DNA of 44,113 nt from Novosphingobium sp. (GCA_029247785.1 JAQWKP010000213.1:1-44113); one strand, 5' to 3'; positions 134 through 33,915 are shown, numbered from the stretch's first letter. Notes: a model not told the origin generated them from the sequence alone. Numbers and translations: made by a program.

Positions 134-1357
134 CTAGCGCCTGCCGTCGTTGAGCGAATAGCCGCCGCGCGTCATCGGGGTTTCAGCGCCGTCGGTGCCT
201 GCCAGCATCTTGCCGGCGTCGAGCAGCGCTTGTTCGCTGTTAAGCACATGGGCGGATCCCGCAGTGATGTCGCGCACGCAGCGCTGGATCGGATTGCCGT
301 TGCGGATCGCCTGGGTGGTGCAGCTATCGAGCACGGCCTGGACGATGCGTTTGCCGACAGTGAAGGCCTGGCTTGTGGAAAGCTGGCCTTCGAGCTGCAT
401 TTCCGGCGTGACCGTGCCTGCCTCGGCGGCATCATAGAGCTGGGCGAAGGTCTGCCGGACATAGGCATCTGCGGCACGCAGATCGGCAACGGCGCTGGCA
501 TAGTCGCGCTGGAATGTCGCCAGATCGCTTGCCTTGCCGGCGCCGCGTGCCTTGCCGCGGGCGAAGTCACGCCATTCGTCGAGCAGTCGGCGCGATGCAC
601 CCAGCGCGAAGGAAGCATGACTGAGGCAGGGGATCGCCATGAAACCCATTCGGTACAGCGCCCCCCCGCGCTGTTGCACTGGCGCGGCGGCGTTGATGAA
701 GAAATCCTCATGCAGCAGCTGGTCTGTCACCTCGAAATCATAGCTGCCGGTGCCGCGCAGGCCGAGCACGTCCCAATTGCCGTGAAACTTGACCGTTTCA
801 CGCGGCGCCAGGCCGATCAGCATGATCGGCTGGCCATTCTCGTCCTTCACCGGCGCATCGCCTTCATGAACGATATAGCCGCCGACGATGAAACCCGCAT
901 TGGGTGTGCCCGAACCGAATGAATAGCGCCCGGAAATTCGGTAGCTATCGCCCTCGCGCACCGCCTTGCCGGTCGGCGCGGCCTGGCCGGCTGCGTGCGC
1001 GAATTTGCCGCCGGGAAAGATCGCCGCGACCGCCTTGGGTCCGAGATGCGCGCCGCCAACGGCGCCGCCGGTCATCACCGCATGGCCGTACCAGCCCGCC
1101 GAACCATCCCAATAGGATAACTCGCTGATCGCATCGATCACATCGAGCGGATGGGCCTCGCCGCCACCAAGCTCGCGCGGAGCCATGATGGCGAACAGGC
1201 CGGCCTCATCCATCGCCTTGACCACTTCGGGTGCGAGTTCGGTGACGTCCTCGTCAGCCGCGGCAGCTGCATCGATCATCGGCCCGAGCGCGCGAGTGCG
1301 CTCAAGCCAGCTACCGGCCTCGCCAGCTGCGTCTGCAATATGAGTTGAGCTTGCCAT
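134..1357 (-). CDS. Acyl-CoA dehydrogenase-fold flavin monooxygenase-like protein (copy 1)
   Basis: 407 aa with the acyl-CoA dehydrogenase fold (N-terminal helical, middle beta, C-terminal helical domain). The closest functional type is the group D flavin-dependent monooxygenases such as HsaA and DszC, which use FADH2 from a separate reductase. Visible support is the middle-domain motif NWDVLGLRGTGS near residue 200 and the N-terminal pattern ELSYWDGSAGWYGHAVMTG. The start is the ATG at 1357, preceded by AGGAGA five bases upstream; the longer track ORF has no such site, and the paralogue also begins MASS. The gene lies 31 bases downstream of the paralogue in the same operon. No flavin reductase gene is in the window. 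The substrate is not readable; a true acyl-CoA dehydrogenase is a less likely alternative. It ends near the window edge but appears complete. Confidence 0.85.
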   Translation of the reverse strand: MASSTHIADAAGEAGSWLERTRALGPMIDAAAAADEDVTELAPEVVKAMDEAGLFAIMAPRELGGGEAHPLDVIDAISELSYWDGSAGWYGHAVMTGGAVGGAHLGPKAVAAIFPGGKFAHAAGQAAPTGKAVREGDSYRISGRYSFGSGTPNAGFIVGGYIVHEGDAPVKDENGQPIMLIGLAPRETVKFHGNWDVLGLRGTGSYDFEVTDQLLHEDFFINAAAPVQQRGGALYRMGFMAIPCLSHASFALGASRRLLDEWRDFARGKARGAGKASDLATFQRDYASAVADLRAADAYVRQTFAQLYDAAEAGTVTPEMQLEGQLSTSQAFTVGKRIVQAVLDSCTTQAIRNGNPIQRCVRDITAGSAHVLNSEQALLDAGKMLAGTDGAETPMTRGGYSLNDGRR

Positions 1358-1388
1358 TATGTCTCCTGCTCCGTCCGGCCGTGCCGGC

Positions 1389-2579
1389 TCAGAAATATAT
1401 CTCTGCACCCTCAACCTCGCCGAGCACGCGCCCGACTTCGATCCACGACATCTCGCCAGTCAGCACATGGGCGTTGCCGCTGGTAATGTCGCGGAAGAAG
1501 CGCTGCAAGGCCGAGCCGTCGCGCAGTCCGGTGGTCGCCGCCGCGGCCTGAGCGGCATTGGCAATGCGCATTGCTGCACCATAAGCATGGCTGGCGCTGA
1601 GCTTGGCTTCGAGCTGCAATTCCTTGGTCACGCTTCCGGCAACAGCGGCATCGTAGAGATTGGAATAGGCCTGCTTCATATAGGCGTCAGCAGCCTTGAG
1701 ATCGGCATGAGCTTGCGCGAAGTCGCGCTGGAAGGTCTGCATGTCGTTCATCATCAGGCCGGGCGCGCGGGATTTGCCAGACGCGTATTTGCGCCATTCT
1801 TCCAGCATTCGCCGCGCTGCGCCCAGCGCATAGGCACCATGCGAAATGCAGGAAAAGGTCATGAAGCCCATGCGGTAAAGCGGCCCGCCGCGCCGCTGCT
1901 GCGGGTCGCCGATATTGAAGGTGAAATCCTGGTGGATCAGCTGTTCGGGAACTTCGAAATCGACGCTGCCGGTGCCGCGCAATCCCAGCACGTCCCAATT
2001 GCCGAGGAAATTGACCTTTGCGCGGGGTACTGCAGCCCACAGCATCACCTGCTGGTCGTTTGCGTCCAGCACCTGCTCGCCGGCTTCATGCAGCAAATAG
2101 CCGCCGACCAACCACTGTGCGCGAGGCGATCCGGTGGCGAAGGAGTAGCAGCCTGATACGCGGTAGTGGTCTCCCTCGCGCGTCGCCTTGCCGGTCGGCG
2201 CAACCTGTCCGGCGCAATGGGTGTAGCGACCCTCAGGGCAGATCGCGGCAATCGCGCTGTCTCCCAGGAACGCGCCAGCGACCCCGCCGCCAGTCATCAC
2301 TGCGTGGGCATACCAGCCGGTCGAGCCATCCCAGTATGACAATTCCGCAATCGCATCGATCTGTTCGACCGGGTGCGCCTCGCCGCCGCCTGCCTCGCGC
2401 GGGATCATGATGGAATAGAGCCCCGCCTCGTCGATCGCCTGCACAACCTCGGCAGTAATTTCCTGCGCTTCCTCGTCCGCTGCGGCGGCGGCATCGATCA
2501 TCGGACCGAGCGCGCGGGCGCGGGAAAGCCAGCTCCCGGATATCTCGGCTGGAGCTGTAGTTGCTGGCGAAGATGCCAT
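1389..2579 (-). CDS. Acyl-CoA dehydrogenase-fold flavin monooxygenase-like protein (copy 2)
   Basis: 396 aa, closely related to the downstream copy along its whole length. Both share SW.., RALGPMIDAAAAADE, GGGEAHP, ELSYWDGS.GWY and NWDVLGLRGTGS, so this is a tandem duplication. The expected role is a reduced-flavin-dependent hydroxylase or oxidase acting on a bulky substrate, as in the HsaA/DszC group. The start is the ATG at 2579 with AGGGAGA just upstream; the track start (MAGLQGE) lies before that ribosome-binding site. The gene is 24 bases downstream of P450-1 and is probably co-transcribed with it. The copies differ most in the C-terminal third, where substrate contacts are likely, so they may have different substrates or form a heteromer; this is inference. 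Confidence 0.85.
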   Translation of the reverse strand: MASSPATTAPAEISGSWLSRARALGPMIDAAAAADEEAQEITAEVVQAIDEAGLYSIMIPREAGGGEAHPVEQIDAIAELSYWDGSTGWYAHAVMTGGGVAGAFLGDSAIAAICPEGRYTHCAGQVAPTGKATREGDHYRVSGCYSFATGSPRAQWLVGGYLLHEAGEQVLDANDQQVMLWAAVPRAKVNFLGNWDVLGLRGTGSVDFEVPEQLIHQDFTFNIGDPQQRRGGPLYRMGFMTFSCISHGAYALGAARRMLEEWRKYASGKSRAPGLMMNDMQTFQRDFAQAHADLKAADAYMKQAYSNLYDAAVAGSVTKELQLEAKLSASHAYGAAMRIANAAQAAAATTGLRDGSALQRFFRDITSGNAHVLTGEMSWIEVGRVLGEVEGAEIYF

Positions 2580-2603
2580 GGTTTCTCCCTGAAGACCCGC
2601 CAC

Positions 2604-3824
2604 TCAGGCCGGTGTGAATTCGATCGGAAGGCCCTTGATGCCCCATACGCCGGGGAACGGCCGCCAGCCCTTTTCGCCTGCCTCATGCGGCTGCTTCATG
2701 TGCTGGGCGATGAGGTGGATGCCTTCCTGCAACTGGGCGCGGGCAATGAACTGACCCAGGCACATATGCTTGCCGAGCCCGAAAGCGACATGGCGGCGCG
2801 CCGGATCGATCTGCCGATCGGGATTGAAGCTGTCCGCATCGTCGAAGGCTTGCGGATCGCGGCCCGAGACGTTGAGGTTGAAGAACAGCATAGTTCCTGC
2901 TGGAATCAGCACGTCGCGATAGGTGATGTCCTCGGACGTGAAGCGGAAGGCCGAGCTGGGATTGAACATCCGCAACGTCTCCTCAACCACCTTGCGGCAA
3001 TAATCGAGATCATCGGCGCAGCGCTCATAGATGTCCGGGTGGTCGGTCATCAGGTGCATCATGTAGGTGAGCACATTCTTCGAGGTGTCATAGCCAGCGA
3101 CAAACAGGAAGATCAGCATGTCAAAGAGCTGCCGGTCGGAAATGCCGCCATCGTCGGCTGCGTCGAGGATGATGTCGAGCAGGTCGGTCGCATCGCTTTC
3201 ACTCGGATTGGCACGCCGCGTGGCGACCAGGTCCTGCGCAAAGCCATCCATATGCAGGAACGCCTTGTCGAGCTGGGGTACCAATGTCTTGTCCATGGAG
3301 AAGGCCAGGCCCATCACTTCCATCGACTGGCGCAGTCCGGGAATAACATCAAGCGGAGCGCCGACCATCTGGGCAGTCACCGCAACCGGATAATAGGATG
3401 AGAATTCCTCAAAATCGATGCGTTCGCGCGGCACCCATTCCGAAAGCAGTCGTTCCATTGTCTCGCGCATGATGGGGCGAAGATTGTTGGCATAGCGCGG
3501 CGTGAACTTGGCGGCGAAAGTGTCGCGCAGAACCCGGTGTTCGCGTTCGGGCAGGGCGATCATCTGCTCTTCGCAGAACCGGCCCCAGGGCGAACCCTTG
3601 CATTCCATAATCTCGGCGATGCCATCGAAGCTGGGCCTGAGATTATCGTCATTGCCCATCAGGTCGCGGATCGCCTGGAGGCTGAATATGGCATAGCCGG
3701 TGTCGGTCTTGGCGAGCCACGGGTGCTTTTCGCGGGCCTTGTCGAACTCGGTATAAGGGTCGGCAGCAAAGGAAGGCTCGTCCCAGTTAAGGTGGTAGAG
3801 ATCGAGCTCATCAACGCGTTGCAT
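2604..3824 (-). CDS. Cytochrome P450 (P450-1)
   Basis: 406 aa soluble bacterial P450, which would hydroxylate an organic substrate with O2 and electrons from a ferredoxin system. Visible motifs are the I-helix AGYDTSKN (oxygen-activating Asp-Thr), K-helix ETLR (ExxR), and the heme loop FGLGKHMCLG with the thiolate Cys near residue 355. The C-terminal signature WRPFPGVWGIKGLPIEF is shared with P450-2, so the two are paralogues. The start at 3824 (MQRVDELD) has GGAAAGGA upstream and is chosen over the longer track ORF. It is the first gene of a three-gene minus-strand unit with the two flavoproteins. There is no N-terminal membrane anchor. No ferredoxin or reductase is encoded nearby. I cannot assign a CYP family or substrate. 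Confidence 0.93.
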   Translation of the reverse strand: MQRVDELDLYHLNWDEPSFAADPYTEFDKAREKHPWLAKTDTGYAIFSLQAIRDLMGNDDNLRPSFDGIAEIMECKGSPWGRFCEEQMIALPEREHRVLRDTFAAKFTPRYANNLRPIMRETMERLLSEWVPRERIDFEEFSSYYPVAVTAQMVGAPLDVIPGLRQSMEVMGLAFSMDKTLVPQLDKAFLHMDGFAQDLVATRRANPSESDATDLLDIILDAADDGGISDRQLFDMLIFLFVAGYDTSKNVLTYMMHLMTDHPDIYERCADDLDYCRKVVEETLRMFNPSSAFRFTSEDITYRDVLIPAGTMLFFNLNVSGRDPQAFDDADSFNPDRQIDPARRHVAFGLGKHMCLGQFIARAQLQEGIHLIAQHMKQPHEAGEKGWRPFPGVWGIKGLPIEFTPA

Positions 3825-4059
3825 CGGTCGGATCCTTTCCTGCTTGCCTGTTCCGCCGTGCCACATTCAGCCCCGCGAGCCTTGATAGGTTCATCCTGCC
3901 TGAACGCGCTCACATGCAAAAGGGGCAATTTCCAACCATTGCGCTCCCAGTCAAATTGGGGCGCTATCGCGCTATCGAATTTTGTATCTCATCTCATTCG
4001 CCGGCCAGGCTGAGCTCCTCGCCATATCCTGACGATAGCTCCTGGGAATCGGGATCCAC
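3825..4059. promoter_or_regulatory. Probable promoter region of the P450-1/flavoprotein operon
   Basis: The longest gene-free stretch in the window (235 bases), between the stop of the amidohydrolase and the start of P450-1. It holds an exact tandem octamer, CGCTATCG twice, at 3962-3977, and a small inverted repeat GCAAT..ATTGC at 3925-3942. The local base composition is more AT-rich than the flanking genes. It is a sensible place for a promoter and operator reading leftward, but I see no confident -35/-10 pair. Confidence 0.4.
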
Positions 4060-5223
4060 TTAGGCGGCGGTTGCCGGGCTATCCTGGACGCTCTCTACAT
4101 CAGTCTCCAGCGGCAGGTCGTAGAACTCGATCGCGTTGGTCCTGCCGATACGTATCTGGTCTTCAAGCGGAACGCCTTCGAACTGATCGGCCAGAAGTTG
4201 TCCGCAATTGGGCCAGCCGCCATCGAAATGGGGATAGTCAGAGCCCCACATGATGTTGCCACGCCCGATAATCTCGCGGCAGAGAATGGCTGTGCGGTCG
4301 CGCATGAATGAACAAGCGACATGGGCGCGGAACACGTCGCTTGGCACAAGTTCCGGCGAAAGGCCCTTGGACTTTCCGGCCCAGCCCTGGTCGCGCAAAA
4401 AGCGGTCGTCCATCCGCTCCAGCATGGCGAGTGGCCAGGCAGCATCGTTCTCGACCGAGATCACCTTGAGGCCGGGGTGACGCTCGAACAGCCCTTCGAA
4501 GATCATTTCGGCGACTGAGTACATGGTCGGGGTGAAGCCGAGCGAAAAATCGGCAAAGGCGTTGCCGCAGCGTGTGTAGGTGTTGGTGCTCGCCGCGACA
4601 TGCAGGCTGATCGGCATGTTGTGTTCTTCGGCGGCGCGCCACAGCCGGGCGTAATCCGGATGGCCGTAGCCGCGTTCTTCCTCGCCGTCGATTGAGACCA
4701 TCGCAGCGCGCATGCCCAGCCTGGCGCAGCGTTCCAGCTCCGCAGTGGCGATCTCGGGATCGCCGGGCGGGATCATTGCGACGCCGTACAAGCGTTTGGG
4801 AGCTGCAGAGCAGAATTCGGCCAGCCAGTCGTTGAAGGAAATGCAGCAGGCAGTGCGGAATTCGACATAGCGCATGCCGAACATCGACAGGCCCAGAGTG
4901 GTGTAGAGGACTTCAGCCTCGATGCCCTCTTTGTCCATCTCCCTGACCCGCGCATCGGGTTCATAGGAACCGACCGGAACATCCTCCCACTTGCCATCCA
5001 TGGTGAAATAGAGATCGTCGGGGTCAGTGTATTTCTTCTTCGTTGCCATCAGGCCGATACCGCCGCGCTGCTTGCCGCTTGAGTAGATACGGTCGCCATC
5101 GGGCGTCGACTGGATTGTCGGCGCGCCCTCGCGGAATTTGGCGGGCAGGCGGGTCGTCCACAGATCGGCAGGCTCGACGATATGCGAATCGGCGGAGACG
5201 AGTTTGAAAGGCAATGGCGACAT
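4060..5223 (-). CDS. Amidohydrolase_2 family protein (ACMSD-like) 1
   Basis: 387 aa metal-dependent hydrolase of the amidohydrolase_2 (ACMSD-like) superfamily, a TIM barrel. Known members are mainly non-oxidative decarboxylases (gamma-resorcylate, 5-carboxyvanillate) and hydrolases of C-C or lactone bonds. The N-terminal metal motif reads SADSHIVEPADLW, with Asp-x-His in place of the classic HxH. A later metal-ligand candidate is in ISLHVAAS near residue 203, and the conserved Asp is in WGSDYPH near residue 330. The ATG at 5223 has AGGAG upstream. The gene lies between two paralogous P450s, 38 bases after P450-2, and is probably in its operon. It shares the SHIVEP motif and overall plan with the protein at 24432-25700 but is clearly divergent. 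Whether it decarboxylates or hydrolyses is unknown. Confidence 0.88.
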   Translation of the reverse strand: MSPLPFKLVSADSHIVEPADLWTTRLPAKFREGAPTIQSTPDGDRIYSSGKQRGGIGLMATKKKYTDPDDLYFTMDGKWEDVPVGSYEPDARVREMDKEGIEAEVLYTTLGLSMFGMRYVEFRTACCISFNDWLAEFCSAAPKRLYGVAMIPPGDPEIATAELERCARLGMRAAMVSIDGEEERGYGHPDYARLWRAAEEHNMPISLHVAASTNTYTRCGNAFADFSLGFTPTMYSVAEMIFEGLFERHPGLKVISVENDAAWPLAMLERMDDRFLRDQGWAGKSKGLSPELVPSDVFRAHVACSFMRDRTAILCREIIGRGNIMWGSDYPHFDGGWPNCGQLLADQFEGVPLEDQIRIGRTNAIEFYDLPLETDVESVQDSPATAA

Positions 5224-5261
5224 TGGGTTGCTCCTGTGGCGTTTCTCCTGCCGTGAGGTGC

Positions 5262-6524
5262 CTATTCGGCGGGTTCGAGTTCCTCGACCCGGGCTTCACC
5301 CGGCGTGAACTCGATCGGTAGGCCCTGGATGCCCCAGGTTCCTGGGAACGGCCGCCAACCCGGCTCGCCCGCCAGCTTGGGGTGGCGGATGCGCTGGGGG
5401 ATCTGGTGGATCGCCTCCTGCAATTGCGCGCGGGCGATATATTGGCCGAGGCACATATGTTTGCCGAGGGCAAAAGCGATATGGCGTCGTTCGGGTTCGA
5501 TCTTGCGGTCCGGATCGAATGTCTGACCGTCGGGATAGGTCTTCGGATCGCGCCCCGAAATGCTCAACGGGAAGAACAGCATCGTATCCTTTGGAAAATG
5601 TACGCCGCGAAATTCGAAATCTGAATCGGCATAGCGCGCTACCGTACCTGGATTGAACCAGCGCAGTGCCTCCTCGACGACCTTCTTGCAATATTCGTAA
5701 TCTTCGCCGCAGCGCTGATATATCTCCGGATATTCGAGCAGAGTGTACATCGTGTAGGTCAACACGTTCTTCGACGTGTCATAGCCAGCGAAGAAAAAGA
5801 AACTGATCAGATCGGCGAGCTGCTGGTGGCTGATATTGCCTTTGTCGCCAACCCGGATGAGCAGGTCCAGCAGGTCTTCGTTTTCCTCGCTGCGATCGGG
5901 TGGATTGGCGCGGCGCTCGGCGATGATGTCCTCGACAAATTTCTCGGTCCGCACCACGCCTTCCTGAATGCGCGGGAACAGGTCGAGCTGATAGGAGTGA
6001 GCCAAGCCAACCGCTTCGAGATCGTCGCGCAGTAGCTCTATTCCCTCCTGCGGTGCACCGACCAAAGCGAACATCACCGAGATTGGAAAGTGGGACGCAA
6101 ATTCCTCAAAATCGATCGCGCCGCGCGGAGCCCATTGATCGAGCAGATTGCCGATCGTCTCGCGCATCATCGGGCGCAGTTGGTTCGCAAAACGTGGAGT
6201 AAACTTCGCTGCGAAAGTGTCACGCAGCAGCCTGTGCTCGTCGACCGGAAGTGCGATCATCTGGTCTTTGGTGAAGCGGCCCCATGGCGTGCCCTGCTGC
6301 CCCAGCTGATCGACGACATCGGCGTAGGGCGGGCGCAGCACGTCTTCCTGCTGGAACAGCTCGCGGATTGCCGCATATTCATGGATAACGTAGCCATACT
6401 CGTCCCATTTCGCGAGCCACGGGTGCTGCTCACGTGCCTTTTCAAAAAACGACCACGGGTCTTCGCCCATAGCCGGATCGCTCATTGGCAAATGGTACAT
6501 CTCGACATCATTGACGTTCTGCAC
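5262..6524 (-). CDS. Cytochrome P450 (P450-2)
   Basis: 420 aa soluble P450, paralogue of P450-1. The I-helix reads FFFAGYDTSKN, the K-helix EALR, and the heme loop FALGKHMCLG with Cys near residue 358. The end GTWGIQGLPIEFTPG extends with an acidic tail. The start is GTG at 6524 (the track shows M), with AGAGGA about nine bases upstream; the N-terminus MQNVNDVEMYHL aligns with P450-1's MQRVDELDLYHL, which supports this start. It leads a unit with the downstream amidohydrolase. The substrate pocket region (residues 80-100 and 170-190) differs from P450-1, so the two may act at different positions of one substrate or on successive intermediates; this is inference. Electron donors are not in the window. 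Confidence 0.93.
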   Translation of the reverse strand: MQNVNDVEMYHLPMSDPAMGEDPWSFFEKAREQHPWLAKWDEYGYVIHEYAAIRELFQQEDVLRPPYADVVDQLGQQGTPWGRFTKDQMIALPVDEHRLLRDTFAAKFTPRFANQLRPMMRETIGNLLDQWAPRGAIDFEEFASHFPISVMFALVGAPQEGIELLRDDLEAVGLAHSYQLDLFPRIQEGVVRTEKFVEDIIAERRANPPDRSEENEDLLDLLIRVGDKGNISHQQLADLISFFFFAGYDTSKNVLTYTMYTLLEYPEIYQRCGEDYEYCKKVVEEALRWFNPGTVARYADSDFEFRGVHFPKDTMLFFPLSISGRDPKTYPDGQTFDPDRKIEPERRHIAFALGKHMCLGQYIARAQLQEAIHQIPQRIRHPKLAGEPGWRPFPGTWGIQGLPIEFTPGEARVEELEPAE

Positions 6525-6606: not shown

Positions 6607-7230
6607 TCAGGCGATCAGGCCCCGCGCTTGCAAGTCTTCGGCCAACCTTTCCGCGCCAGTGAAGTGATGGACCTGCCAGCCCAGCCCTTCAGCTGAGGCG
6701 ATGTTGGCGGCATTATCATCGATGAACAACATCTCTTCAGGAGCAAGCCCAAAGCGGCCGGCGGCCAGCGTGAAAATCCTTGGATCGGGTTTGATAAGCC
6801 GTTCCACACCTGAAACCACGATATCGCGAAACAGGTCGAACAGGGGCTCGGTCGGCCGGAACTGGTCCCAGAATTCCGCACCGAAGTTGGTTATTGCGAA
6901 TAACGGTATATCGCGCGCTGCAAGCTGCCTGACTAGAGCAGGCATGTCGGCGACGGGCCCCGGGATCGATTCGGCGTAGCGGGTAGCATAGGCGTCGATC
7001 AGGTCGGCATGGTTGGGAAACAGCTGCTTGCGCTCGACTAACCGCGCGCCAAGATCGATCCCGGCATCGTGCTCGAAATGCCATTCCGGCGTGACGACAT
7101 TGGCCAGAAACCAGTCCAGCTCATCGGCATCGTCAATCAGTTTTGCGAAAAGGTAGCGCAAGTCCCATTCGACCAGCACTTTACCGACATCGAAGACGAC
7201 GGCGGTTGTACGTTCCGCGGTCTGGTTCAT
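6607..7230 (-). CDS. HAD-superfamily hydrolase (YihX-like phosphatase)
   Basis: 207 aa HAD subfamily IA protein, cytoplasmic, expected to dephosphorylate small phosphorylated metabolites. All four HAD motifs are readable: FDVGKVLVEW with the nucleophile Asp near residue 14, ITNFGAEFW (motif II Thr), the Lys in LIKPDPRIF (motif III), and FIDDNAANI (motif IV acidic pair). The second motif I position is Gly rather than Asp, as in the YihX glucose-1-phosphatase group. The ATG at 7230 is used; a TTG directly before it is the track start, and neither has a strong ribosome-binding site. It lies 31 bases downstream of rpmJ on the same strand. It looks like a general metabolic gene rather than part of the P450 unit. 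Confidence 0.85.
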   Translation of the reverse strand: MNQTAERTTAVVFDVGKVLVEWDLRYLFAKLIDDADELDWFLANVVTPEWHFEHDAGIDLGARLVERKQLFPNHADLIDAYATRYAESIPGPVADMPALVRQLAARDIPLFAITNFGAEFWDQFRPTEPLFDLFRDIVVSGVERLIKPDPRIFTLAAGRFGLAPEEMLFIDDNAANIASAEGLGWQVHHFTGAERLAEDLQARGLIA

Positions 7231-7261
7231 CAATTACCAGCCCCGAACACTCGCCATCAAA

Positions 7262-7484: not shown

Positions 7485-8491
7485 TCAAGCGTCGGGGCGC
7501 ATATCCGCAAGCTTTCGTTCCCAGGCGAGTGCATGGCTGACGATCGTGTCGAGATCGGCATATTGCGGCACCCAGGGAAGAGTCTGCATGATCGCCCGGT
7601 TGTCTGAAATCAGCGAATCGGGATCGCCGGCGCGACGGCCTTCCATGGTTCGCTCGATTATGCGGTTAGTCACCCGGTCGACGGCGTCGAGCACCTCAAG
7701 CACCGAAAGCCGCGGCCATATCCGCAATTCATTGTCAACGAGCGGTCTGGTTCTGCAAGCAGCGCCTCCAGCGCCAGAACATGAGCTGCAGCAAGGTCCG
7801 AGACATGGATGTAGTCGCGCACGCCGGTGCCATCGGGCGTGTCAAAGTCGGTGCCGAACACGCTGACGGAATCGCGTTTGCCCAGAGCGGCTTCGACCGC
7901 GACCTTGATGAGATGAGTTGCGCCCGCCGTCGACTGCCCGGTGCGTGCTGCCGGATCGGCACCTGCGACATTGAAATAGCGCAATGCGCAATAATTGATC
8001 GGATGGGCATAGGCGACATCGGTCAGCATTCGCTCGGTCATCAGCTTGGACATGCCATAGGGGTTGATCGGTAGCTGGGGGCTATCCTCGGTGACCGGCG
8101 AGATCTCGGGAATGCCATAGGTCGCTGCCGTCGAGCTGAAGATGAAATGCGGCACAGAGCTTTCGACCGCCGCGCCGATCAGCGCGCGGCTCTTGGCGGT
8201 GTTGTTGTGATAATATTTCAGCGGGTCCTCAACCGATTCCGGTACAACGACCGAGCCAGCGAAATGCATGATCGCGCCCGTGCCCTGCTCGGTGAATATC
8301 CGGGCGAGAAGATCGGCATCCTCGATGTCGCCTTCATAGAGAGTCACGCCCTCGGGCACGGCGAAACGGAAACCGGTCGAAAGATTGTCAATCACCGCTA
8401 CTGGCCAACCCGAATCGACCAGGGCAAGCACTGCGTGGCTGCCGATATATCCGGCTCCGCCGGTAACCAGTACGGAAGGTTTCTTGTTCAT
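7485..8491 (-). pseudogene. galE: UDP-glucose 4-epimerase, frameshifted
   Basis: GalE interconverts UDP-glucose and UDP-galactose (short-chain dehydrogenase fold with bound NAD). The N-terminal part reads in one frame with the nucleotide motif GGAGYIGSH, catalytic YGMSK and the RYFNVAGAD segment. The last ~75 residues (SVLEVLDAV to ALAWERKL) read in another frame. The switch falls at GYGRGF|SVLEV, where the coding strand has GGCTTTCGGTG; one extra T would restore GGCTTTTCGGTG and a 335-aa protein of normal length. The break maps to the AAA at 7706-7708 on the plus strand. Both pieces otherwise keep family motifs with no other damage. It is either a recent single-base deletion or a sequencing or assembly error. 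The start is ATG at 8491. If real, the product loses its C-terminal substrate-binding segment. Confidence 0.85.
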
Positions 8492-8600
8492 CACGAAGTC
8501 CGCTATACGGTCTGTAAGAAAATCTGATTAAGCCATGAGCAATCAGCGGGGGTCCACAAGCAAACGGCCAAACCGAAAATTGGCCGGGAGGAAAGCAGTG
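8492..8600. promoter_or_regulatory. Divergent promoter region, galE / DUF4136 lipoprotein
   Basis: A 109-base spacer between divergent starts that must carry both promoters. An AT-rich patch (TAAGAAAATCTGATTAA) lies at 8515-8531. A strong ribosome-binding site GGAGGAAA precedes the rightward ATG at 8601. I see no convincing operator. Confidence 0.35.
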
Positions 8601-10343: not shown

Positions 10344-11429
10344 TCAGTCCTTCCACCACATAGTACCGAAATCGGGCGTGGACGCGGCCAGCCATTCGGG
10401 TTCAGCCTTGCCGTCGCGATAGCGGGTCAGGATAATTTCGCCGGTGGCCTGCGCTTCATTGCCGGCCTCGCCCATGGCCTCGTTCCGTCCTTCCAACCAG
10501 CGATTGGCTTCGCTCGTCGTCTCGACGCTGATGCGGTGGATGACGCGGCCCATGCTTGCTTCGCGCAGCTGCCTTTCGAGCTCGTCCTTCTGCTCCTCGT
10601 TCCAGTAGAACAGGCAGGCCGAGTGATAGACGCAGACCGGATCGGGGGTTGCGGCGAGCACCCCGGGCAAAATGGTCAGCGCGTCGCCTTCATGGAAGGC
10701 GATGTCACTGGCGGCGACGAAATCCATCGCATCGTTAAGCTGGCGCTGGTCGTCCAGCAATTCGGGATAGCAGGTGGCAATCATCCAGCGCCGGTCTTCC
10801 TCTCGGTTCGGATCGATGACATTGAGGTCGAGGCCGGTGCGGCTGCCGATTAGGGGAATGCGCAGCGCAGGCCCGCCGTGCAGTTCGCCCTTGAGGTGTA
10901 TGGGCGAGGCTCGGTCGCCGATGTGCTCGCCCTCGCGCAGCTCGTAGGCATATTTGTCGAACATCAGCAGCGCACCGGCCGAGCAACCCAGTTCGACGAT
11001 GTTGAGCGGCTCACCGGCCTCATCGGCGACAATGCACATTGGCGGCAGCAGCGTGCGGCAGCGATAGGCATAGGTCATCTGCACTGGCTTGGATGCGATC
11101 AGCTGCCTGAGCTCATCGCGGTATTCGAGACAGAAGGCGCGAAAATCGGGCCATGCCTCATCTGGCGGTGCCGGTTCGGCAACCAGCGTCGCGAAAAAAC
11201 GGGCGAGCGGGTGTTTGGCGCCGCCCAGCAGCAGGAAATGGGCCGAGGTGAACAGGTGGACCGGTGAGGCCGCATCGAGCCCTTCGGCGGACAGCGCCAG
11301 CACTTCGGGGTCTTTCGCGCCTTCGCGGCACAGCGTGGCATAGAGCGGTGAGCCAAGCGTGCCATACATGTGTTCGGCAGCGCGATAGGCCGCAGCAGTG
11401 TGTTCGAGGTCTTCTGCATCGGCCGCCAT
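10344..11429 (-). CDS. DUF2332 family protein
   Basis: 361 aa, DUF2332 family, function not established. Residues near 145-165 read NIVELGCSAGALL, which looks like motif I of a Rossmann SAM-dependent methyltransferase (acidic residue, Gly-x-x-x-Gly). Downstream VCVYHSACLFYWNEEQ and the final WLAASTPDFGTMWW are typical of the family. A SAM- or nucleotide-binding role is therefore possible but inferred. The ATG at 11429 follows the Rieske stop by a single base (TGA-C-ATG), so translation is coupled to that gene; a GTG at 11447 inside the Rieske gene is the alternative start. The position implies a role tied to the oxygenase product. Confidence 0.8.
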   Translation of the reverse strand: MAADAEDLEHTAAAYRAAEHMYGTLGSPLYATLCREGAKDPEVLALSAEGLDAASPVHLFTSAHFLLLGGAKHPLARFFATLVAEPAPPDEAWPDFRAFCLEYRDELRQLIASKPVQMTYAYRCRTLLPPMCIVADEAGEPLNIVELGCSAGALLMFDKYAYELREGEHIGDRASPIHLKGELHGGPALRIPLIGSRTGLDLNVIDPNREEDRRWMIATCYPELLDDQRQLNDAMDFVAASDIAFHEGDALTILPGVLAATPDPVCVYHSACLFYWNEEQKDELERQLREASMGRVIHRISVETTSEANRWLEGRNEAMGEAGNEAQATGEIILTRYRDGKAEPEWLAASTPDFGTMWWKD

Positions 11430-11430
11430 G

Positions 11431-12807
11431 TCAGCCTTCGCCAGCACCTTCGACCCAGCGATCCATCCCGTCGTGGAAGTGATGTATCTTCGGCTCCTGC
11501 TTTGTCAGCACCATATAAGGCAGCTGGCGGCTGTTGAGCCCGCGCTGCTGGATCGCCATCTGCACGAAGTCCTGTTCGAGTGCGAGGAAGTAGGGAAAGT
11601 GATCGTCTTCGGCGATATCGGTGTATTGCGTTCGCTGTGCTTCGCGCTCCTCTGGGGGAAGCCACATCAGTGCAAATACGCGCCAGTTACAGCGGGTGGG
11701 ATCGCCGCTCGGATGCGGCTCGGCAATGATCGCGGTACCATCGCCTGAGCGCACCTGCAAAAAGACATTGGGGAACAGGAACCAATATTGGTAATCGCTC
11801 ATCTGTCCATCGGTGAGGTTGCCTACATCGAGGCCCTTTGCCTCGAGCTTTTCGCGCACGGCCTGTTGAAGCAGGCCGATCGGGGTTGCTCCTGATGGCA
11901 ATTCCAGCGTTCCATCCTCCTTGCGGTATCCGGCGACAATTTCGGCCAGACGCGGCAGCGCGTCGGCGAAGCCCGGGAAGTTGGCAACCGGCAGGTTGAG
12001 ATAGCCCTCGACCTCTGCCTCCAGTCCCAACCCAGCTTGCATCGATGCTGCGAAAGGCACGGCAGTCACCGCGTGATCGCCGACGAAGCTGCAATGTTCG
12101 GCACCGAGATTGGTCATATGGGCGAGTTCGGGATGGACGCCCTGAACGTGATAGCCTTCCTGGAATGCGTCCATCACCACTTTCCAGTTGCAGTCGATGG
12201 ATTCGCGCAGGTTCATGCCAAGAGCAACCATTTCATCGATGCGATAAGGCGTAAGCATTTCCTTGGCGTCGCCGAGGAAGCTATCGAGCGGCGGCGCGTC
12301 CGGGTCAGGATTAAGGAAAACGAAACCGGCGAAGCATTCAACCTGGACCTCGATCAGGCCGAGCTCGTTTTTGTCCCCGACGAATTCCTCCGTGGTGCCG
12401 TCAAAATCGGGCTTGGCGACGGAGAGGCATTGGCCGTCCAGGCCGTAGGACCAGTTGTGATAGGGGCAGGTAAATCGCGGGGCATTGCCGCGGCCTTCGC
12501 AAAAGGCGTTGCCGCGATGGCGGCAGGCGTTAACGAAGCCGCGCACCTTGTCGTCGCGCCCGCGCACCAGGACGAACGACTGGTCGAACAGGCGATATTC
12601 CATGAAGTCGCCCGCCTCGGGGATTTCCTCGGCGCGCCCAGCGATCTGCCAGACGCGCATCCAAAGGTTCTCGCGCTCGCGCTGGTTGTAGTCGCGAGAA
12701 TGATAGCGATCCGTCGGAATCTGCTTACGATAGCCCGAAAGGTCGAGCTCGCAGCTCAGCGGGGCATTGTCCACGCGCTCGCCCGGTTTTGCCAGTTGCG
12801 TTGCCAT
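11431..12807 (-). CDS. Rieske non-heme iron aromatic-ring oxygenase, large subunit
   Basis: 458 aa. The Rieske [2Fe-2S] domain near residues 50-160 has CRHRG and CPYHNW (CxH, 17 residues, CxxH). The catalytic domain has the mononuclear iron site EGYHVQGVHPE near residues 220-230, with the third ligand likely the Asp in LEQDF near residue 415. Such enzymes insert O2 into aromatic or alicyclic rings, or demethylate, using electrons from a reductase. No beta subunit, ferredoxin or reductase is encoded here, so it is either an alpha-only type or it borrows partners. The ATG at 12807 has GAGGAAA upstream. It is co-transcribed with the DUF2332 gene. The substrate is unknown. Confidence 0.93.
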   Translation of the reverse strand: MATQLAKPGERVDNAPLSCELDLSGYRKQIPTDRYHSRDYNQRERENLWMRVWQIAGRAEEIPEAGDFMEYRLFDQSFVLVRGRDDKVRGFVNACRHRGNAFCEGRGNAPRFTCPYHNWSYGLDGQCLSVAKPDFDGTTEEFVGDKNELGLIEVQVECFAGFVFLNPDPDAPPLDSFLGDAKEMLTPYRIDEMVALGMNLRESIDCNWKVVMDAFQEGYHVQGVHPELAHMTNLGAEHCSFVGDHAVTAVPFAASMQAGLGLEAEVEGYLNLPVANFPGFADALPRLAEIVAGYRKEDGTLELPSGATPIGLLQQAVREKLEAKGLDVGNLTDGQMSDYQYWFLFPNVFLQVRSGDGTAIIAEPHPSGDPTRCNWRVFALMWLPPEEREAQRTQYTDIAEDDHFPYFLALEQDFVQMAIQQRGLNSRQLPYMVLTKQEPKIHHFHDGMDRWVEGAGEG

Positions 12808-13656: not shown

Positions 13657-14967
13657 TTACTTTACATCCCATTGCAGGTGCAGGTTCCGGATCGAGAGCA
13701 GGCCGGGATAGACGGTGCTGCTGGTGCCCGGCTTGACCCGGAATTCCGGAATGCGCTTGAACCATTCGTCGAGCAGCAGGCGCAACTCGCGCCGGGCAAG
13801 ATGGGCGCCAAGGCAGATGTGGACGCCGCCGACGAAAGTGAAATGCCGGTTGGCCTTGCGAGTCGGATCGAAAGTGCGCGGGTCCTTGAACCGGGAGGCA
13901 TCGAAATTGCCCGCCGGGTTCAGGCAGGAAAAGCCGTCGCCAGCCTTGACCTGAACGCCGTGCCATTCGAAGTCCCTGGTCGCGCGCCGACCTGAGCTGA
14001 GGATCGGCTGGGTGCGCAGGAATTCCTCGACCGCACCGTTGATCAATGCTGGATTCTCGCGGATCATCGTCTGGATTTCGGGCTGCAGCGCCATTCGGCG
14101 ATACATCTGGCTGATCGTCGCCGCGACTGTGTCGAGCCCTCCCAGCCACAGGAACCACACCGTGCCGATCTTCTCTTCCTCGGTCAGCGGGCGGCCTTCG
14201 ATCTTGCCATGGACGATTGAGCTGGTCAGATGCTCGTCCGGGTTCTTTTCCTTCTCGGCAATGAAGCTGCGCAGGTATTCGAGCACGTTGCGCAAGGCCC
14301 CCTGCATCTTTTCCAGGCTGCCGGAATGGAGGATGTCCCATTCCCACTCGAGGAAGTCTTCGAATTTCTCGTCCGGGAAGCCCATCAGTCCCATGAAGAT
14401 GCGCACCGGAAAGACCCGGCCGAAATCCCAAGCCATGTCGACTTCGCCCTTGTCGGCGATGGCGTCGATCATCTCGGTGACGATTTTCCGGATGCGCGGT
14501 TCGAGATCACGGGTGATCCGGGCCGGGGAGAAGAACGGCACCAGGAACATGCGATATTTGCTGTGCTCCGGGGGATCGATCGCGAGCGGGATCGAGCGGA
14601 AGGTCTCGCCGATCAGCGCCTGGAATTCGGCAGTACCCTTGTTCGAGAAATGGTCGTTGTCGCTATAGACGCGGTCGATATCCTCATAATGCGGCACGAC
14701 CCAATTGCCGCTTGGCGAGGCGCCGGCAGCGCTGCCCATCCCGTTCTGCGGTGGAGGATTGAATAGCAGGCGAGGGATTTCCGGCCCGCTGAGCCAACCG
14801 AACGGCTCATAGGGATCGACCAGGTCGTTGGCATGGGAGCTGCCCATCGCAATGTTTAGATCGACAATCCGGTCTTTGGGGACATGGTCCGGCGCACCGG
14901 CAAATTCGGTTCGGATCGCGTCTAACGACTGGGGGAAAATCTTCTCGAGTGTTGCCTGGTCGGACAT
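13657..14967 (-). CDS. Cytochrome P450 (P450-3, CYP101-like)
   Basis: 436 aa soluble P450. The I-helix has WLGGLDTVAATI, the K-helix EFLR, and the heme loop FVGGVHICLGAHLAR with Cys near residue 385. The arrangement of the C-terminal half (GGLDT, then PEFRVKPG before the end) resembles the P450cam (CYP101) group, which hydroxylates terpenoids and related compounds with a 2Fe-2S ferredoxin. It differs clearly from P450-1 and -2 and is nearer P450-4. The ATG at 14967 follows GGAG; the track start is an upstream TTG that overlaps this ribosome-binding site, so I rejected it. It is divergent from the MFS transporter across a 176-base spacer with an inverted repeat. Confidence 0.93.
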   Translation of the reverse strand: MSDQATLEKIFPQSLDAIRTEFAGAPDHVPKDRIVDLNIAMGSSHANDLVDPYEPFGWLSGPEIPRLLFNPPPQNGMGSAAGASPSGNWVVPHYEDIDRVYSDNDHFSNKGTAEFQALIGETFRSIPLAIDPPEHSKYRMFLVPFFSPARITRDLEPRIRKIVTEMIDAIADKGEVDMAWDFGRVFPVRIFMGLMGFPDEKFEDFLEWEWDILHSGSLEKMQGALRNVLEYLRSFIAEKEKNPDEHLTSSIVHGKIEGRPLTEEEKIGTVWFLWLGGLDTVAATISQMYRRMALQPEIQTMIRENPALINGAVEEFLRTQPILSSGRRATRDFEWHGVQVKAGDGFSCLNPAGNFDASRFKDPRTFDPTRKANRHFTFVGGVHICLGAHLARRELRLLLDEWFKRIPEFRVKPGTSSTVYPGLLSIRNLHLQWDVK

Positions 14968-15143
14968 GTGGGTCTCCAATTGAAATCATCACATGCCGCG
15001 AAGCGTGCTGTGGGGCAAGGGAAGAAGCAGCCACGAATCTGCTTGAGAGTCGGGTGGTGAAACGCGAAGGTCTGCGTCAGGTGACGCCGGACATGTGTTC
15101 CGCTGCAAGAACGCGCGCCTTCGGAAGAGGGAGAGATTAGCAA
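14968..15143. promoter_or_regulatory. Divergent promoter region with inverted repeat, P450-3 / MFS
   Basis: A 176-base spacer. At 15074-15087 lies a perfect inverted repeat, GCGTCA-GG-TGACGC. Its position between divergent oxidative and transport genes fits an operator for a dimeric repressor or activator. No regulator gene is adjacent. The repeat is short, so chance cannot be excluded in GC-rich DNA. Confidence 0.4.
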
Positions 15144-18021: not shown

Positions 18022-18188
18022 AGTGTTTTGAGCTCCCTGTCCCGAACGGAAACCTTGATGGCCCCGCTCGCCGTCAATGTGAAGGGTTCTTTTTGGGAGC
18101 GGCTGAGGTCCTCAGATCCCCGAAAATTTCAAACCCGCTAGACGATTTATCCAAGTGCGTTAGACTTTGCATCGGTTGGAGAGGCACT
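18022..18188. promoter_or_regulatory. Divergent promoter region with inverted repeat, SDR 2 / P450-4
   Basis: A 167-base spacer between divergent starts. It contains a perfect inverted repeat CTGAGG-T-CCTCAG at 18103-18115 and, nearby, the small palindrome GAAAATTTC. The location suits a shared operator for the SDR pair and P450-4. The ribosome-binding site GGAGAGG precedes the P450 start. Confidence 0.4.
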
Positions 18189-19406
18189 ATGCAGAAAACA
18201 ATCTACGAGCCTGTCCCGGTGCCCTCCCATGTGCCGCCCGAGCTGGTTTTCGATTTCGATTTCTTCACTCCGCCCGATGCCGCCGACGACATCCAGCTGG
18301 CATGGAAGAAGCTGCACGAGGTCGCGCCCGATATCTTCTGGACGCCGCGCAATGGCGGCCACTGGGTGGCAACGCGTGGCGAGGATATCCGAGAGGTCCA
18401 GACCAACTACCGGCGCTACAGCCAGCGGGTCATGACCATTCCTGCAGCCGCGCAGACCTTTCGCATACTGCCGGCCAATGCCGACCCGCCGGAACATGAG
18501 GACTATCGCAAGATCATCATCCCGGCCTTTTTGCCCAAGGTGGTCGATGGGCTGGAAGCTGGTATCCGTGAGAATGCGCGGGAGCTGATCGGCGAAATTG
18601 CGCCGCGAGGAGCGTGCGAGTTCATCGAGGATTTCGCCCGACAGCTGCCGATCATCACTTTCCTCAAATTCGCCGACTTGCCGCAAGGCGACCGGAAGCT
18701 GCTCGTCGATCTCGCGGATGCGATCATGCATGGCAGCGACGAGAGCAGGGCCGCCGAGGCGCAGCAGGAGATGACCGATTATGTCGCCCGGTTGATCGAG
18801 CAGCGCCGGCGCAATCCCGGCGGGGACGTCATCTCCATGGTGGTTACGGCCAATATCGGCGACCGCCCGATCAATGATGAAGAAGTTTTCGGGCTGGTGC
18901 GGCTGATCCTGTTTGGCGGGCTCGACACGCTGACTTCGCTGGTAGGCTTCATCTGGCGCTTCCTTGCGACCCATCCCGAGCATTGCCGCGACCTTGTCGA
19001 CCATCCTGAATTGCGGCGCAACGCGTTTGAGGAACTGATCCGCCGTCACGGCGTCGTCAACACCGCGCGTTTCATCACCGATGACTGCACCTACAAAGGC
19101 ATCGCCTTCAACAAGGGCGACATGATCCAGATACCCAATTCCCTGCACGGGCTGGATGAGCGGATCACACCGGATCCGTTGACAGTCGATTTTCGTCGCA
19201 CCCATGTCCAGCACGCGGCTTTCGGTGGAGGTCCGCATATCTGCCCCGGCGTCTGGCTGGCCAAGCGAGAGATCGAAGTTTCGCTCGACGTCTGGCTGGA
19301 CCTGATCCCCGAATTTAGCCTTGCGCCGGGGAGCGCCCCACTACTGCACGCCGGCGCGAGCAATAATGGGGTGCTGCGGCTCGATCTGGCCTGGGATGTG
19401 ACCTAG
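18189..19406 (+). CDS. Cytochrome P450 (P450-4, CYP101-like)
   Basis: 405 aa soluble P450, close in plan to P450cam. The I-helix reads LFGGLDTLTSL, the K-helix ELIR, and the heme loop FGGGPHICPGVWLAK with Cys near residue 352. HGLDER before the heme loop matches P450cam's SGLDER. CYP101-like enzymes hydroxylate monoterpenoids and similar alicyclic molecules. A Pro follows the heme Cys (ICPG) instead of the usual Leu. The start at 18189 (MQKTIYEP) has GGAGAGG seven bases upstream; the 32 extra residues of the track ORF are spacer sequence. Its stop codon overlaps that of the convergent sulfurylase gene inside a 12-base palindrome. Confidence 0.93.
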   Translation: MQKTIYEPVPVPSHVPPELVFDFDFFTPPDAADDIQLAWKKLHEVAPDIFWTPRNGGHWVATRGEDIREVQTNYRRYSQRVMTIPAAAQTFRILPANADPPEHEDYRKIIIPAFLPKVVDGLEAGIRENARELIGEIAPRGACEFIEDFARQLPIITFLKFADLPQGDRKLLVDLADAIMHGSDESRAAEAQQEMTDYVARLIEQRRRNPGGDVISMVVTANIGDRPINDEEVFGLVRLILFGGLDTLTSLVGFIWRFLATHPEHCRDLVDHPELRRNAFEELIRRHGVVNTARFITDDCTYKGIAFNKGDMIQIPNSLHGLDERITPDPLTVDFRRTHVQHAAFGGGPHICPGVWLAKREIEVSLDVWLDLIPEFSLAPGSAPLLHAGASNNGVLRLDLAWDVT

Positions 19407-24431: not shown

Positions 24432-25700
24432 ATGGCCGATGCCGATGCTACAGAACTGGCGCAGTCCGCTCGCAAATACTGGTCTGCTGACGGCTACAAA
24501 AAGGGCGGTGTGATCCGTGAGGTTGATTATGCCTCGCAATCAGGCGGGCTCCATCCCTCGCTTGAGGGCATCAAGATCGTGGATACTGACACCCATATTG
24601 TCGAGCCGCCTGATCTTTTCACCAGCCGTGCGCCGGCAGGCATGAAGGACAAGATGCCCTATGTGAAACGCGACGAAGATGGCACCGACCGCTGGTATAT
24701 TGGCGATCGCAATTGCGGCTCGATGGGCGGCAATGTCATTCGCAAAGACAACAACAAGCTGCTGGGCCGGCTGGCCTTCCCGACACTTGATGAAGGCCAT
24801 GCTGGCGGCCATGAGCTCGCGCCACGCTTGCAGGCGATGGATGACATGGGCGTCTATGCGCAGGTCTGTTTCCAGAATTCCGGCGTCACCCAGGCTGGTA
24901 TGCTGATGACGCTGGGCGATGACGATCTGGCGCTGACGATCATCAAGACGTTCAACGATTTCAGCGCCGATTGGCAACGCGAATCGGGAGAGAGACTGTT
25001 TCCGATGGCGCATTTGCCGCTTTGGAATCAGGCGGAGCTGGAAAAAGAAGCGCAGCGTTGCATCGACATGGGGCTGAAGGGCTTCGTCCTGCCAGACACG
25101 CCGGAGAGCTTTGGCGTGCCCAGCTTCAACGATGATTACTGGACCCCGTTGCTCGAAATGTGCTCGGCCACAGGAACGCCGCTTAATTTTCACCTCAACG
25201 CCGCGATCGACCCGAATTCGCTAACTTGGGACGGTTTCCGGTTTGAGCAGACGCTGTCAGTGATCGCGACGATGTACTCGATCGGCAATGCTGCGACGCT
25301 GGGCAACTGGATGGTTTCAGGCCGACTGGATCGTCACCCGAATCTCAAGATTGGCCTGATCGAAAGCGGCGCAGGCTGGATTCCTTTCGCCGTCGAGGCG
25401 CTGGAGCACCAGTTCCGCGAAATGCTGCCTGTGATGCGCGATGTCCTCAAGAAACAGCCCTGGGACTATTTCCGCGATCACTTCATGTGCACCTTTTGGT
25501 TCGAAAAGATCGCGCCCAAGCTGCTGCTGGAAACGATTGGCGTCGACAATGTCATGTTCGAGACCGATTTCCCGCACCCGACTTCACTTTACCCTGGCGT
25601 GCAGAACCATATCATCGACGTGCTCGGCGGCCATGATTTCGAGGTGCAGAAGAAGGTCCTGCAGGACAATGCGGTGAGGTTCTACAACCTGCCGTTCTGA
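24432..25700 (+). CDS. Amidohydrolase_2 family protein (ACMSD-like) 2
   Basis: 422 aa TIM-barrel metal-dependent enzyme. The N-terminal metal motif is DTDTHIVEPPDLF near residue 55, again Asp-x-His rather than HxH. Other metal or catalytic positions are the His in PLNFHLNAA (near 255) and the Asp in FETDFPHPTS (near 378). Known relatives are decarboxylases or C-C/lactone hydrolases acting on carboxylated ring compounds. There is a ~50-residue N-terminal extension before the barrel. The ATG at 24432 has AGGAGA upstream; the track ORF reads 118 codons further back through the divergent gene. It is transcribed alone, ending before a repeat that separates it from the convergent agmatine-deiminase-like gene. 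Confidence 0.9.
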   Translation: MADADATELAQSARKYWSADGYKKGGVIREVDYASQSGGLHPSLEGIKIVDTDTHIVEPPDLFTSRAPAGMKDKMPYVKRDEDGTDRWYIGDRNCGSMGGNVIRKDNNKLLGRLAFPTLDEGHAGGHELAPRLQAMDDMGVYAQVCFQNSGVTQAGMLMTLGDDDLALTIIKTFNDFSADWQRESGERLFPMAHLPLWNQAELEKEAQRCIDMGLKGFVLPDTPESFGVPSFNDDYWTPLLEMCSATGTPLNFHLNAAIDPNSLTWDGFRFEQTLSVIATMYSIGNAATLGNWMVSGRLDRHPNLKIGLIESGAGWIPFAVEALEHQFREMLPVMRDVLKKQPWDYFRDHFMCTFWFEKIAPKLLLETIGVDNVMFETDFPHPTSLYPGVQNHIIDVLGGHDFEVQKKVLQDNAVRFYNLPF

Positions 25701-30661: not shown

Positions 30662-31789
30662 ATGATGCAAGACGCCGACCGTGATCTGTTGCCCGAGGGG
30701 CTTGTCGACCGCCTACCGCAAGGCGCGGGCGCTGCCGTGCGCGTCAAGCGCGCTGCGCTCGACGTCATGGCGGGTCATGGCTATGACCGGGTGCTGACCC
30801 CGGGAATCGAGTTTGAACGCTCGATGGCAAGCCGGATGGTGGGGGTCCAGCCGCGCCGCATGTTCCGCTTTGTCGACCCGGCGAGTTCGCGCACCCTTGC
30901 ACTGCGTTCGGACATTACCGTGCAAGTCGGTCGCATCTCAGCGACTTCGCTGGCTGATGCGCCAAGGCCGCTTCGACTGTGCTATTCCGGTCAGGTTCTA
31001 ACGATCAAGCCGGACGGGCTCGACCCAGCCCGAGAGCGGCTGCAATTGGGGGCCGAAATGATCGGCAGCGATTCCGTCGCTGCCGCAGCCGAGATCGTCG
31101 CGGTCGCGATCGAAGCGTTGCAGGCGGCAGGCGCGCAAGGCGTGTCCGTTGATTTCACCTTGCCGGACCTGGTCGATACGCTCGCCGAGAAGTCTTTGCC
31201 GTTGCCTGTCGAAAGCATTGAGGCGGTTCGCCGCGAGCTCGATGCCAAGGATGCGGGCGGTCTCGTCGCGGCCGGTGGGGAAGCTTATCTGCCGCTGCTC
31301 TATGCGATCGGCCCGTTCGATCGGGCGATCGAACAGCTGGCCGAGACCGATGCTGGTGGCGCGCTCGCCAGCCGCATCGAGGGGCTACGCGAGATTGCCG
31401 CACGGATTGCCGGCAAGGCCCGGATCACACTCGATCCGTCCGAGCGGCATGGCTTCGAGTATCAGAGCTGGTTCGGATTCACGATTTACGCACAGGGTGT
31501 ATCGGGAGCGCTCGGCCGTGGTGGCACTTATCGCATCCTCGGCCGGGACGAGGCTGCGACTGGTTTCTCGCTCTATCCCGATCCGCTGATCGATGCGTTG
31601 GCGAATGTTGAAGAGGTGCGCGAAACGCTGTTCCTCCCGCTCGGCCATGACGAAGAAGTCGCCGCGAGGCTGCGTGCTATCGGCTGGCGCACAATTGCGG
31701 CATTGTCCGGCGACGACGATGCGGCAGGGCTCGGCTGCACTCACCGGCTGGAGGGTGACGAGGCAGTCGCACTTCAGGGCCGCAAATAG
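30662..31789 (+). CDS. hisZ: ATP phosphoribosyltransferase regulatory subunit
   Basis: 375 aa HisRS-like protein that lacks tRNA charging activity and partners with the short HisG to form the active first enzyme of histidine synthesis. Motif-2-like MFRFVDP and ALRSDITVQVGR, and the late GRGGTYRILGRDE, place it in HisZ. Its partner hisG is not in the window. The start is ATG at 30662 or 30665 (ATGATG) with AGGG upstream; the track start is a TTG overlapping the serA stop. Its 3' end overlaps the convergent SnoaL-like gene by 16 bases. Confidence 0.92.
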   Translation: MMQDADRDLLPEGLVDRLPQGAGAAVRVKRAALDVMAGHGYDRVLTPGIEFERSMASRMVGVQPRRMFRFVDPASSRTLALRSDITVQVGRISATSLADAPRPLRLCYSGQVLTIKPDGLDPARERLQLGAEMIGSDSVAAAAEIVAVAIEALQAAGAQGVSVDFTLPDLVDTLAEKSLPLPVESIEAVRRELDAKDAGGLVAAGGEAYLPLLYAIGPFDRAIEQLAETDAGGALASRIEGLREIAARIAGKARITLDPSERHGFEYQSWFGFTIYAQGVSGALGRGGTYRILGRDEAATGFSLYPDPLIDALANVEEVRETLFLPLGHDEEVAARLRAIGWRTIAALSGDDDAAGLGCTHRLEGDEAVALQGRK

Positions 31790-32223
31790 ACGATCATGCG
31801 GCTGAACCGGCCGTCCGGCGCCAGCGTGAAATGGTCGATCGTGGTCAGAACGTAGCGCTGCTCGCCGTCGACATCCATCGGGATCGAAAGCTCCATGAAG
31901 CAGTCATTGCCCTCACCGTAAATCGAGACGGCCTTGGCAATTGGCGTGACCTTGGCGATGGTGTTTTCGTAGAAATCGACGATCTTTGCGCGTCCGACTA
32001 CCGGCGCGCGCCTGAGCGGCGGATAGATCACCGCATCGTCGGTAAACAGGTCCGGCAGCTTGTGGAATTCGCGGGCCTGGACGTGTTCGACATAGGTTTG
32101 CGCCAGGCGGTAGGCCGGTGATGCCTTGGCATCGACTGGTGTGTCGATGAACACGTCGCGCTTGTCGGCATGGGCCGGATCGAGCCTTCCCCCCGGTACG
32201 TTCAGTTCGACATGGTCTGACAT
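31774..32223 (-). CDS. SnoaL/NTF2-like protein 1
   Basis: 149 aa alpha+beta-barrel protein of the NTF2/SnoaL type. Residues 40-149 carry the fold: AYRLAQTYVEHVQAREFHKL, then FTDDAVIYPP, then VGRAKIVDFYENTI, and a beta-sheet end with YVLTTIDHFTLAPDGRFS. Family members include ketosteroid isomerase, polyketide cyclases and limonene epoxide hydrolase, as well as many with unknown substrates. There is a ~30-residue N-terminal tail. It precedes nothing downstream except the end of hisZ, which it overlaps. It is 30 bases downstream of amidohydrolase 3 and is probably in its operon. Confidence 0.8.
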   Translation of the reverse strand: MSDHVELNVPGGRLDPAHADKRDVFIDTPVDAKASPAYRLAQTYVEHVQAREFHKLPDLFTDDAVIYPPLRRAPVVGRAKIVDFYENTIAKVTPIAKAVSIYGEGNDCFMELSIPMDVDGEQRYVLTTIDHFTLAPDGRFSRMIVYLRP

Positions 32224-32253
32224 CAGCTTCTCCTCTCTGCACTGTTCATCGTG

Positions 32254-33288: not shown

Positions 33289-33398
33289 GCTGGCGAATAT
33301 GCATCAGCGCTGCAAGATGGCAAACAGCGATCACACGCTTGCGCGGCAGGCCCGACTTGTTCCACTCTGTGCCGTGACAATCTTGCGGGAGACGATCG

Positions 33399-33911: not shown

Positions 33912-33915
33912 CCCC

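Follow-up and report, generated by a model that had tools for sequence, protein, structure and literature searches.

A 44,113-nucleotide stretch of DNA from Novosphingobium sp. (GCA_029247785.1 JAQWKP010000213.1:1-44113), referred to here as the window, carries five adjacent genes at positions 134 to 6524 that encode a pair of flavoproteins, a pair of cytochromes P450, and a PF04909 protein. The host draft genome (G000) comprises 3.99 Mb in 385 contigs, with a completeness of 100 and a contamination of 3.55%. Families were assigned using Pfam and NCBIfam profiles, and comparisons with solved structures were scored in bits. As stated in the original prediction, all five genes are read leftward, from minus-strand frames. 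They are, in order of position, FMO1 (134 to 1357; open reading frame [ORF] from 1414), assigned to the oxygenase component of an HsaA/C2-type two-component flavin monooxygenase; FMO2 (1389 to 2579; ORF 1389 to 2603), a diverged FMO1 paralogue with the same fold; the cytochrome P450 gene P450a (2604 to 3824; ORF from 3866); ARO1 (4060 to 5223), encoding the PF04909 protein; and a second cytochrome P450 gene, P450b (5262 to 6524). The ribosome-binding-site context points to likely starts at 1357 (an ATG) for FMO1, 2579 for FMO2, and 3824 for P450a. The spacing is operon-like, except for approximately 0.2 kb between ARO1 and P450a. A promoter and terminator scan of the window gave no signal above that of shuffled sequences.

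FMO1 and FMO2 share 58% identity and adopt the HsaA/C2 fold, in agreement with their earlier description as HsaA-like. Their structure matches were Rv3094c (87 bits), HsaA (82 bits), XiaF (50 bits), and C2 (48 bits), compared to 26 bits for the best acyl-CoA dehydrogenase. Like these four proteins, they align over their full length and carry the flavin-region motif GLRGTGS and a C-terminal R-D-H segment. Unlike them, they occur as a tandem pair without a local reductase, and relative to known two-component monooxygenases they form a separate subfamily present in seven species, including this one. FMO1 orthologues with 64 to 75% identity are found in six congeners; no FMO2 orthologue above 64% identity was found in the related genomes searched, and FMO2 occupies a long branch of uncertain placement in the tree. 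A contig scan with the flavoprotein pair returned only two loci, the peptide patterns chosen for it being weak. A PF08028 protein encoded near the flavin reductase gene on contig C124 was first read as a true HsaA but is an acyl-CoA dehydrogenase, as are the other PF08028 proteins run against NCBIfam, with the exception of one HsaA-like protein on contig C342.

The kinship with HsaA raises the alternative of a steroid (9,10-seco) pathway, in which the two flavoproteins would fill the role of HsaA and the P450s would attack the side chain. A gene of the 3-ketosteroid dehydrogenase family within the window leaves a steroid-like substrate open, the only flavin reductase encoded in the genome resembles HsaB, and a related metagenome-assembled genome is named for Chol11, a bile-salt degrader. 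However, FMO1 and FMO2 reach only 126 and 122 bits against the NCBIfam HsaA equivalog NF045629, whose cut-off is 450; a higher score (149 bits) is obtained by the other HsaA-like protein in this genome, and no ring-cleaving dioxygenase is encoded near the five genes. We consider a steroid pathway improbable.

P450a and P450b are related, as had been proposed (54% identity), and their heme-binding (FALGKHMCLG and FGLGKHMCLG), I-helix (AGYDT), and ExxR (EALR and ETLR) motifs are all intact. Both thus resemble the class I bacterial P450s of the PDB, CYP163-like enzymes among them, in having a full P450 domain with all motifs. They differ from that class in lacking a close characterized relative, the best PDB match being 171 bits, and an adjacent ferredoxin. 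In the tree, they fall into separate, older clades.

The ARO1 product had been taken for an ACMSD-like amidohydrolase and a likely decarboxylase or hydrolase. An ACMSD/LigW-type mononuclear-metal enzyme working downstream of the oxygenases would agree with its family, since PF04909 includes such enzymes, and ARO1 does match 5-carboxyvanillate decarboxylase (65 bits) and ACMSD (64 bits). However, its best solved relatives are PtmU3 (PDB 6omp, 171 bits) and DitZ (PDB 8uyr, 148 bits), with scores more than double. The group of amidohydrolase-related dinuclear oxygenases (AROs) takes in PtmU3 and AibH2 (PMC10811679), and the ligands of the PtmU3-like LynB7 are D11, H13, H197, E252, D320, and H323, with D325 replacing E313 of PtmU3 (PMC10127204). 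This set of three histidines and three carboxylates (D, H, H, E, D, H) is complete in ARO1 as D12, H14, H208, E258, D329, and H332, and it is identical to that of PtmU3 and DitZ. A seventh position is aspartate (D334), as in DitZ and LynB7/BarH. In the LigW and ACMSD alignments, the position of Glu258 is histidine, whereas that of His332 is tyrosine in LigW and has no aligned residue in ACMSD. The closer matches to PtmU3 and DitZ, together with the full dinuclear ligand set, therefore make a decarboxylase or hydrolase of the ACMSD kind very unlikely, and the metal-ligand pattern gives the earlier assignment no support. The six ligands are also kept in ARO1 orthologues and in ARO2, another PF04909 protein of the window, but are missing from a third (32254 to 33288). 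PtmU3 and DitZ also give ARO2 its best matches among solved structures. From its sequence, ARO1 is probably an ARO that would oxidize C-H bonds at a dinuclear (Fe2 or Mn/Fe) center, and since it keeps the ARO ligands, all five genes probably encode oxygenases. The similarity of ARO1 to PtmU3 and DitZ is nonetheless of the 30% identity class, and PtmU3 comes from an antibiotic biosynthesis pathway, whereas ARO1 is found among catabolic-type oxygenases.

For AibH2 and SfbO, a small Rieske protein is encoded close by; PtmU3 is not known to require one. None was found near ARO1, the sole PF00355 match in the window being an oxygenase-sized alpha subunit, and two small Rieske frames are located on other contigs of the genome. 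Diterpenoid catabolic clusters of the dit type assemble mixed oxygenases around a polycyclic isoprenoid. The DitZ-named protein is a near relative of ARO1, which serves here as a lead; no further dit gene was found, although none was specifically sought. Our literature search retrieved no paper on DitZ. In a plasmid collection, the DNA of positions 134 to 6524 had no match and the protein queries gave only matches below 60% identity, among which those of ARO type still carry the label "amidohydrolase family protein."

The original prediction had delimited the module at 6524. The five genes are there as described, but oxygenase genes continue beyond that boundary. Past a HAD-family hydrolase gene (6607 to 7233, minus strand), which is the conserved right-hand flank of the five genes, come those for a Rieske nonheme oxygenase alpha subunit (11431 to 12807, minus strand), P450c (13657 to 14979, minus strand), P450d (18093 to 19406, plus strand), the fourth P450 of the window, and ARO2 (24432 to 25700, plus strand), a predicted dinuclear oxygenase. 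A DUF2332 protein (10344 to 11447) adjoins the Rieske alpha subunit, and no local redox partners are encoded there either.

Conservation was surveyed in approximately 120 related genomes, with the window's own genome counted in and a match threshold of E ≤ 1e-60. All five genes together occurred in this genome alone and in none of the relatives searched. FMO2-like matches occurred in 7 genomes, P450b-like matches in 13, and ARO1-like matches in 4. What relatives keep is P450a adjacent to one FMO gene, as observed in three congeners (G054, G044, and G064). Both G044 and G064 show the gene order M14, lipoprotein, HAD, a short cassette, P450a, FMO, P450c, ARO2, extensin, serC, and serA; the P450c homologues (74 to 76% identical) directly follow P450a-FMO, and the ARO2 homologues (84 to 85% identical) adjoin P450c. 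The same genes occupy the same region in the window, spread over approximately 25 kb with other genes between them. The corresponding G054 region reads HAD, P450b, a further P450, P450a, and FMO. P450b orthologues (69 to 81% identity) are present in five congeners, with the HAD gene adjacent at least in G054, G026, and G060, and in the last two P450a is not there; P450b is thus an older, separate neighbor of the HAD gene. The ARO1 orthologues of G054 and G069 sit elsewhere. Next to that of G054 lie a gene for a CoA-transferase III and a further ARO gene, and one of the two copies in G069 lies on a 27-kb contig with an FMO orthologue and several P450s, one of which follows the FMO gene at a distance of 33 bp. 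The set of five thus does not qualify as a conserved module, for which P450a-FMO-P450c-ARO2 is the stronger candidate.

Neither a 2Fe-2S ferredoxin (PF00111), a Reductase_C reductase (PF14759), nor a flavin reductase (PF01613) was matched in the window, a search that did not include Fe3S4/Fe4S4 ferredoxins and flavodoxins; within that range, the reported lack of redox partners in 44 kb was borne out. We then turned to the genome as a whole, which contains 74 P450 matches merging to 65 places, 53 PF04909 matches with at least 38 proteins carrying all six ARO ligands, and 39 Rieske domains, mainly in oxygenase-sized frames. In contrast, there are ten Fer2 matches, few of which are small stand-alone ferredoxins, those on contigs C304 and C250 directly adjoining P450s. 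A single Reductase_C ferredoxin reductase was found, on C216, and a single flavin reductase, on C124, which is closest to HsaB yet below the HsaB cut-off. In a separate sample of 81 genomes used for first-look counts, G000 ranked highest both for P450s (86 versus 50 for the next) and for PF04909 (61 versus 55), these being candidates rather than confirmed genes. We found no paper on a P450- or ARO-rich sphingomonad. Given so many oxygenases and so few partners genome-wide, missing partners at one locus are to be expected, and the redox partners of the window oxygenases would have to act in trans.

The reading that we favor, with slightly better than even confidence, is that the five genes belong to a larger catabolic oxygenase island (approximately 134 to 25700), all five encoding terminal oxygenases. 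The observations are best matched by a catabolic island whose substrate would be a polycyclic or isoprenoid compound activated with coenzyme A (CoA). FMO1 and FMO2, of the fold and family described above, would use reduced flavin made in trans by the C124 reductase, and P450a and P450b would be class I enzymes fed in trans by the C304 and C250 ferredoxins and the C216 reductase. ARO1 and ARO2 would hydroxylate CoA-linked intermediates, as suggested by the PtmU3 precedent and by the CoA-transferase III gene of G054; by analogy with PtmU3, the substrate of ARO1 is probably CoA-linked. P450a-FMO-P450c-ARO2 would form the conserved core, with P450b, FMO2, and ARO1 as neighbors added in this lineage. 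The most tentative step is the role itself, which is most likely stepwise hydroxylation in the breakdown of a polycyclic isoprenoid or a similar alicyclic-aromatic compound. As for the dedicated polycyclic or terpenoid pathway originally envisaged, a catabolic cluster is plausible and the kinship with PtmU3 and DitZ suits the terpenoid theme, but the five genes are not one conserved set. We regard as possible, though rather unlikely, an undescribed pathway that passes a single CoA-linked polycyclic substrate from one type of oxygenase to the next (heme, flavin, and dinuclear metal), with P450a-FMO-P450c-ARO2 joined by FMO2, ARO1, and P450b on a small shared set of redox proteins.

Several points weigh against the island. 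None of the relatives examined has ARO1 at this site, and the AlphaFold model of ARO1 (two sequences) is too poor to add support (mean predicted local distance difference test score, 41.8). The fragmentation and contamination of the draft may have put the family counts slightly off. Moreover, of 40 ARO places genome-wide, only 9 have a P450 within 5 kb, compared to an upper-bound chance expectation of 7.3. A genome-wide co-clustering of AROs with P450s is thus not supported, and neighboring P450 and PF04909 genes are ordinary in this genome. Proximity alone is therefore no evidence of joint function, whereas cross-species synteny is. These chance-level figures would suit a hotspot without a shared pathway, where the site between HAD/M14 and extensin-serC-serA gathered unrelated oxygenases and the five genes act on different substrates. 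The restriction of the full set to this genome, the separate older clades of P450a and P450b, and the variable contents of the site (a third P450 in G054 and a transglutaminase/ATP-grasp cassette in G026 and G064) are all in line with it. However, P450a and FMO stay adjacent in three congeners, with P450c and ARO2 next in two, and a P450 again follows the FMO orthologue of G069; we judge such a hotspot to be possible but less likely than the catabolic island.

Other features of the region were also recorded. In related species, a transglutaminase, Alpha-E, circularly permuted ATP-grasp, and proteasome-like cassette stands beside the HAD/P450 site (L039:10849-15043 and L032:1014-3637); it is absent from that site in the window. 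The galE gene (7497 to 8494) is split by a frameshift near 7697 to 7709, representing either a pseudogene or an assembly error, and its frames −1 and −3 together span the 334-residue protein of G054. Further along, a SnoaL-like protein, the non-ARO PF04909 hydrolase, a beta-propeller protein, and an esterase are encoded in a row (31774 to 35888), which possibly represents another small catabolic cluster. Adjoining this row, the 3-ketosteroid delta-1-dehydrogenase relative (35956 to 37653) matches PDB 7p18 with 488 bits and falls below the NCBIfam equivalog cut-offs.

All parts of the proposed island come from described families. Within the searchable range, what appears to be new is the recurrent P450-FMO-P450-ARO order, together with how far AROs and P450s have expanded compared to redox partners. 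AROs were recognized as oxygenases only of late, through PtmU3, AibH2, and SfbO. A genome with at least 38 AROs, one of which has P450s and a flavin monooxygenase as syntenic neighbors in more than one species, is a concrete place to seek their catabolic substrates and electron donors. With oxygenases in such excess over redox partners, it becomes directly testable how many P450s a single ferredoxin system can serve.

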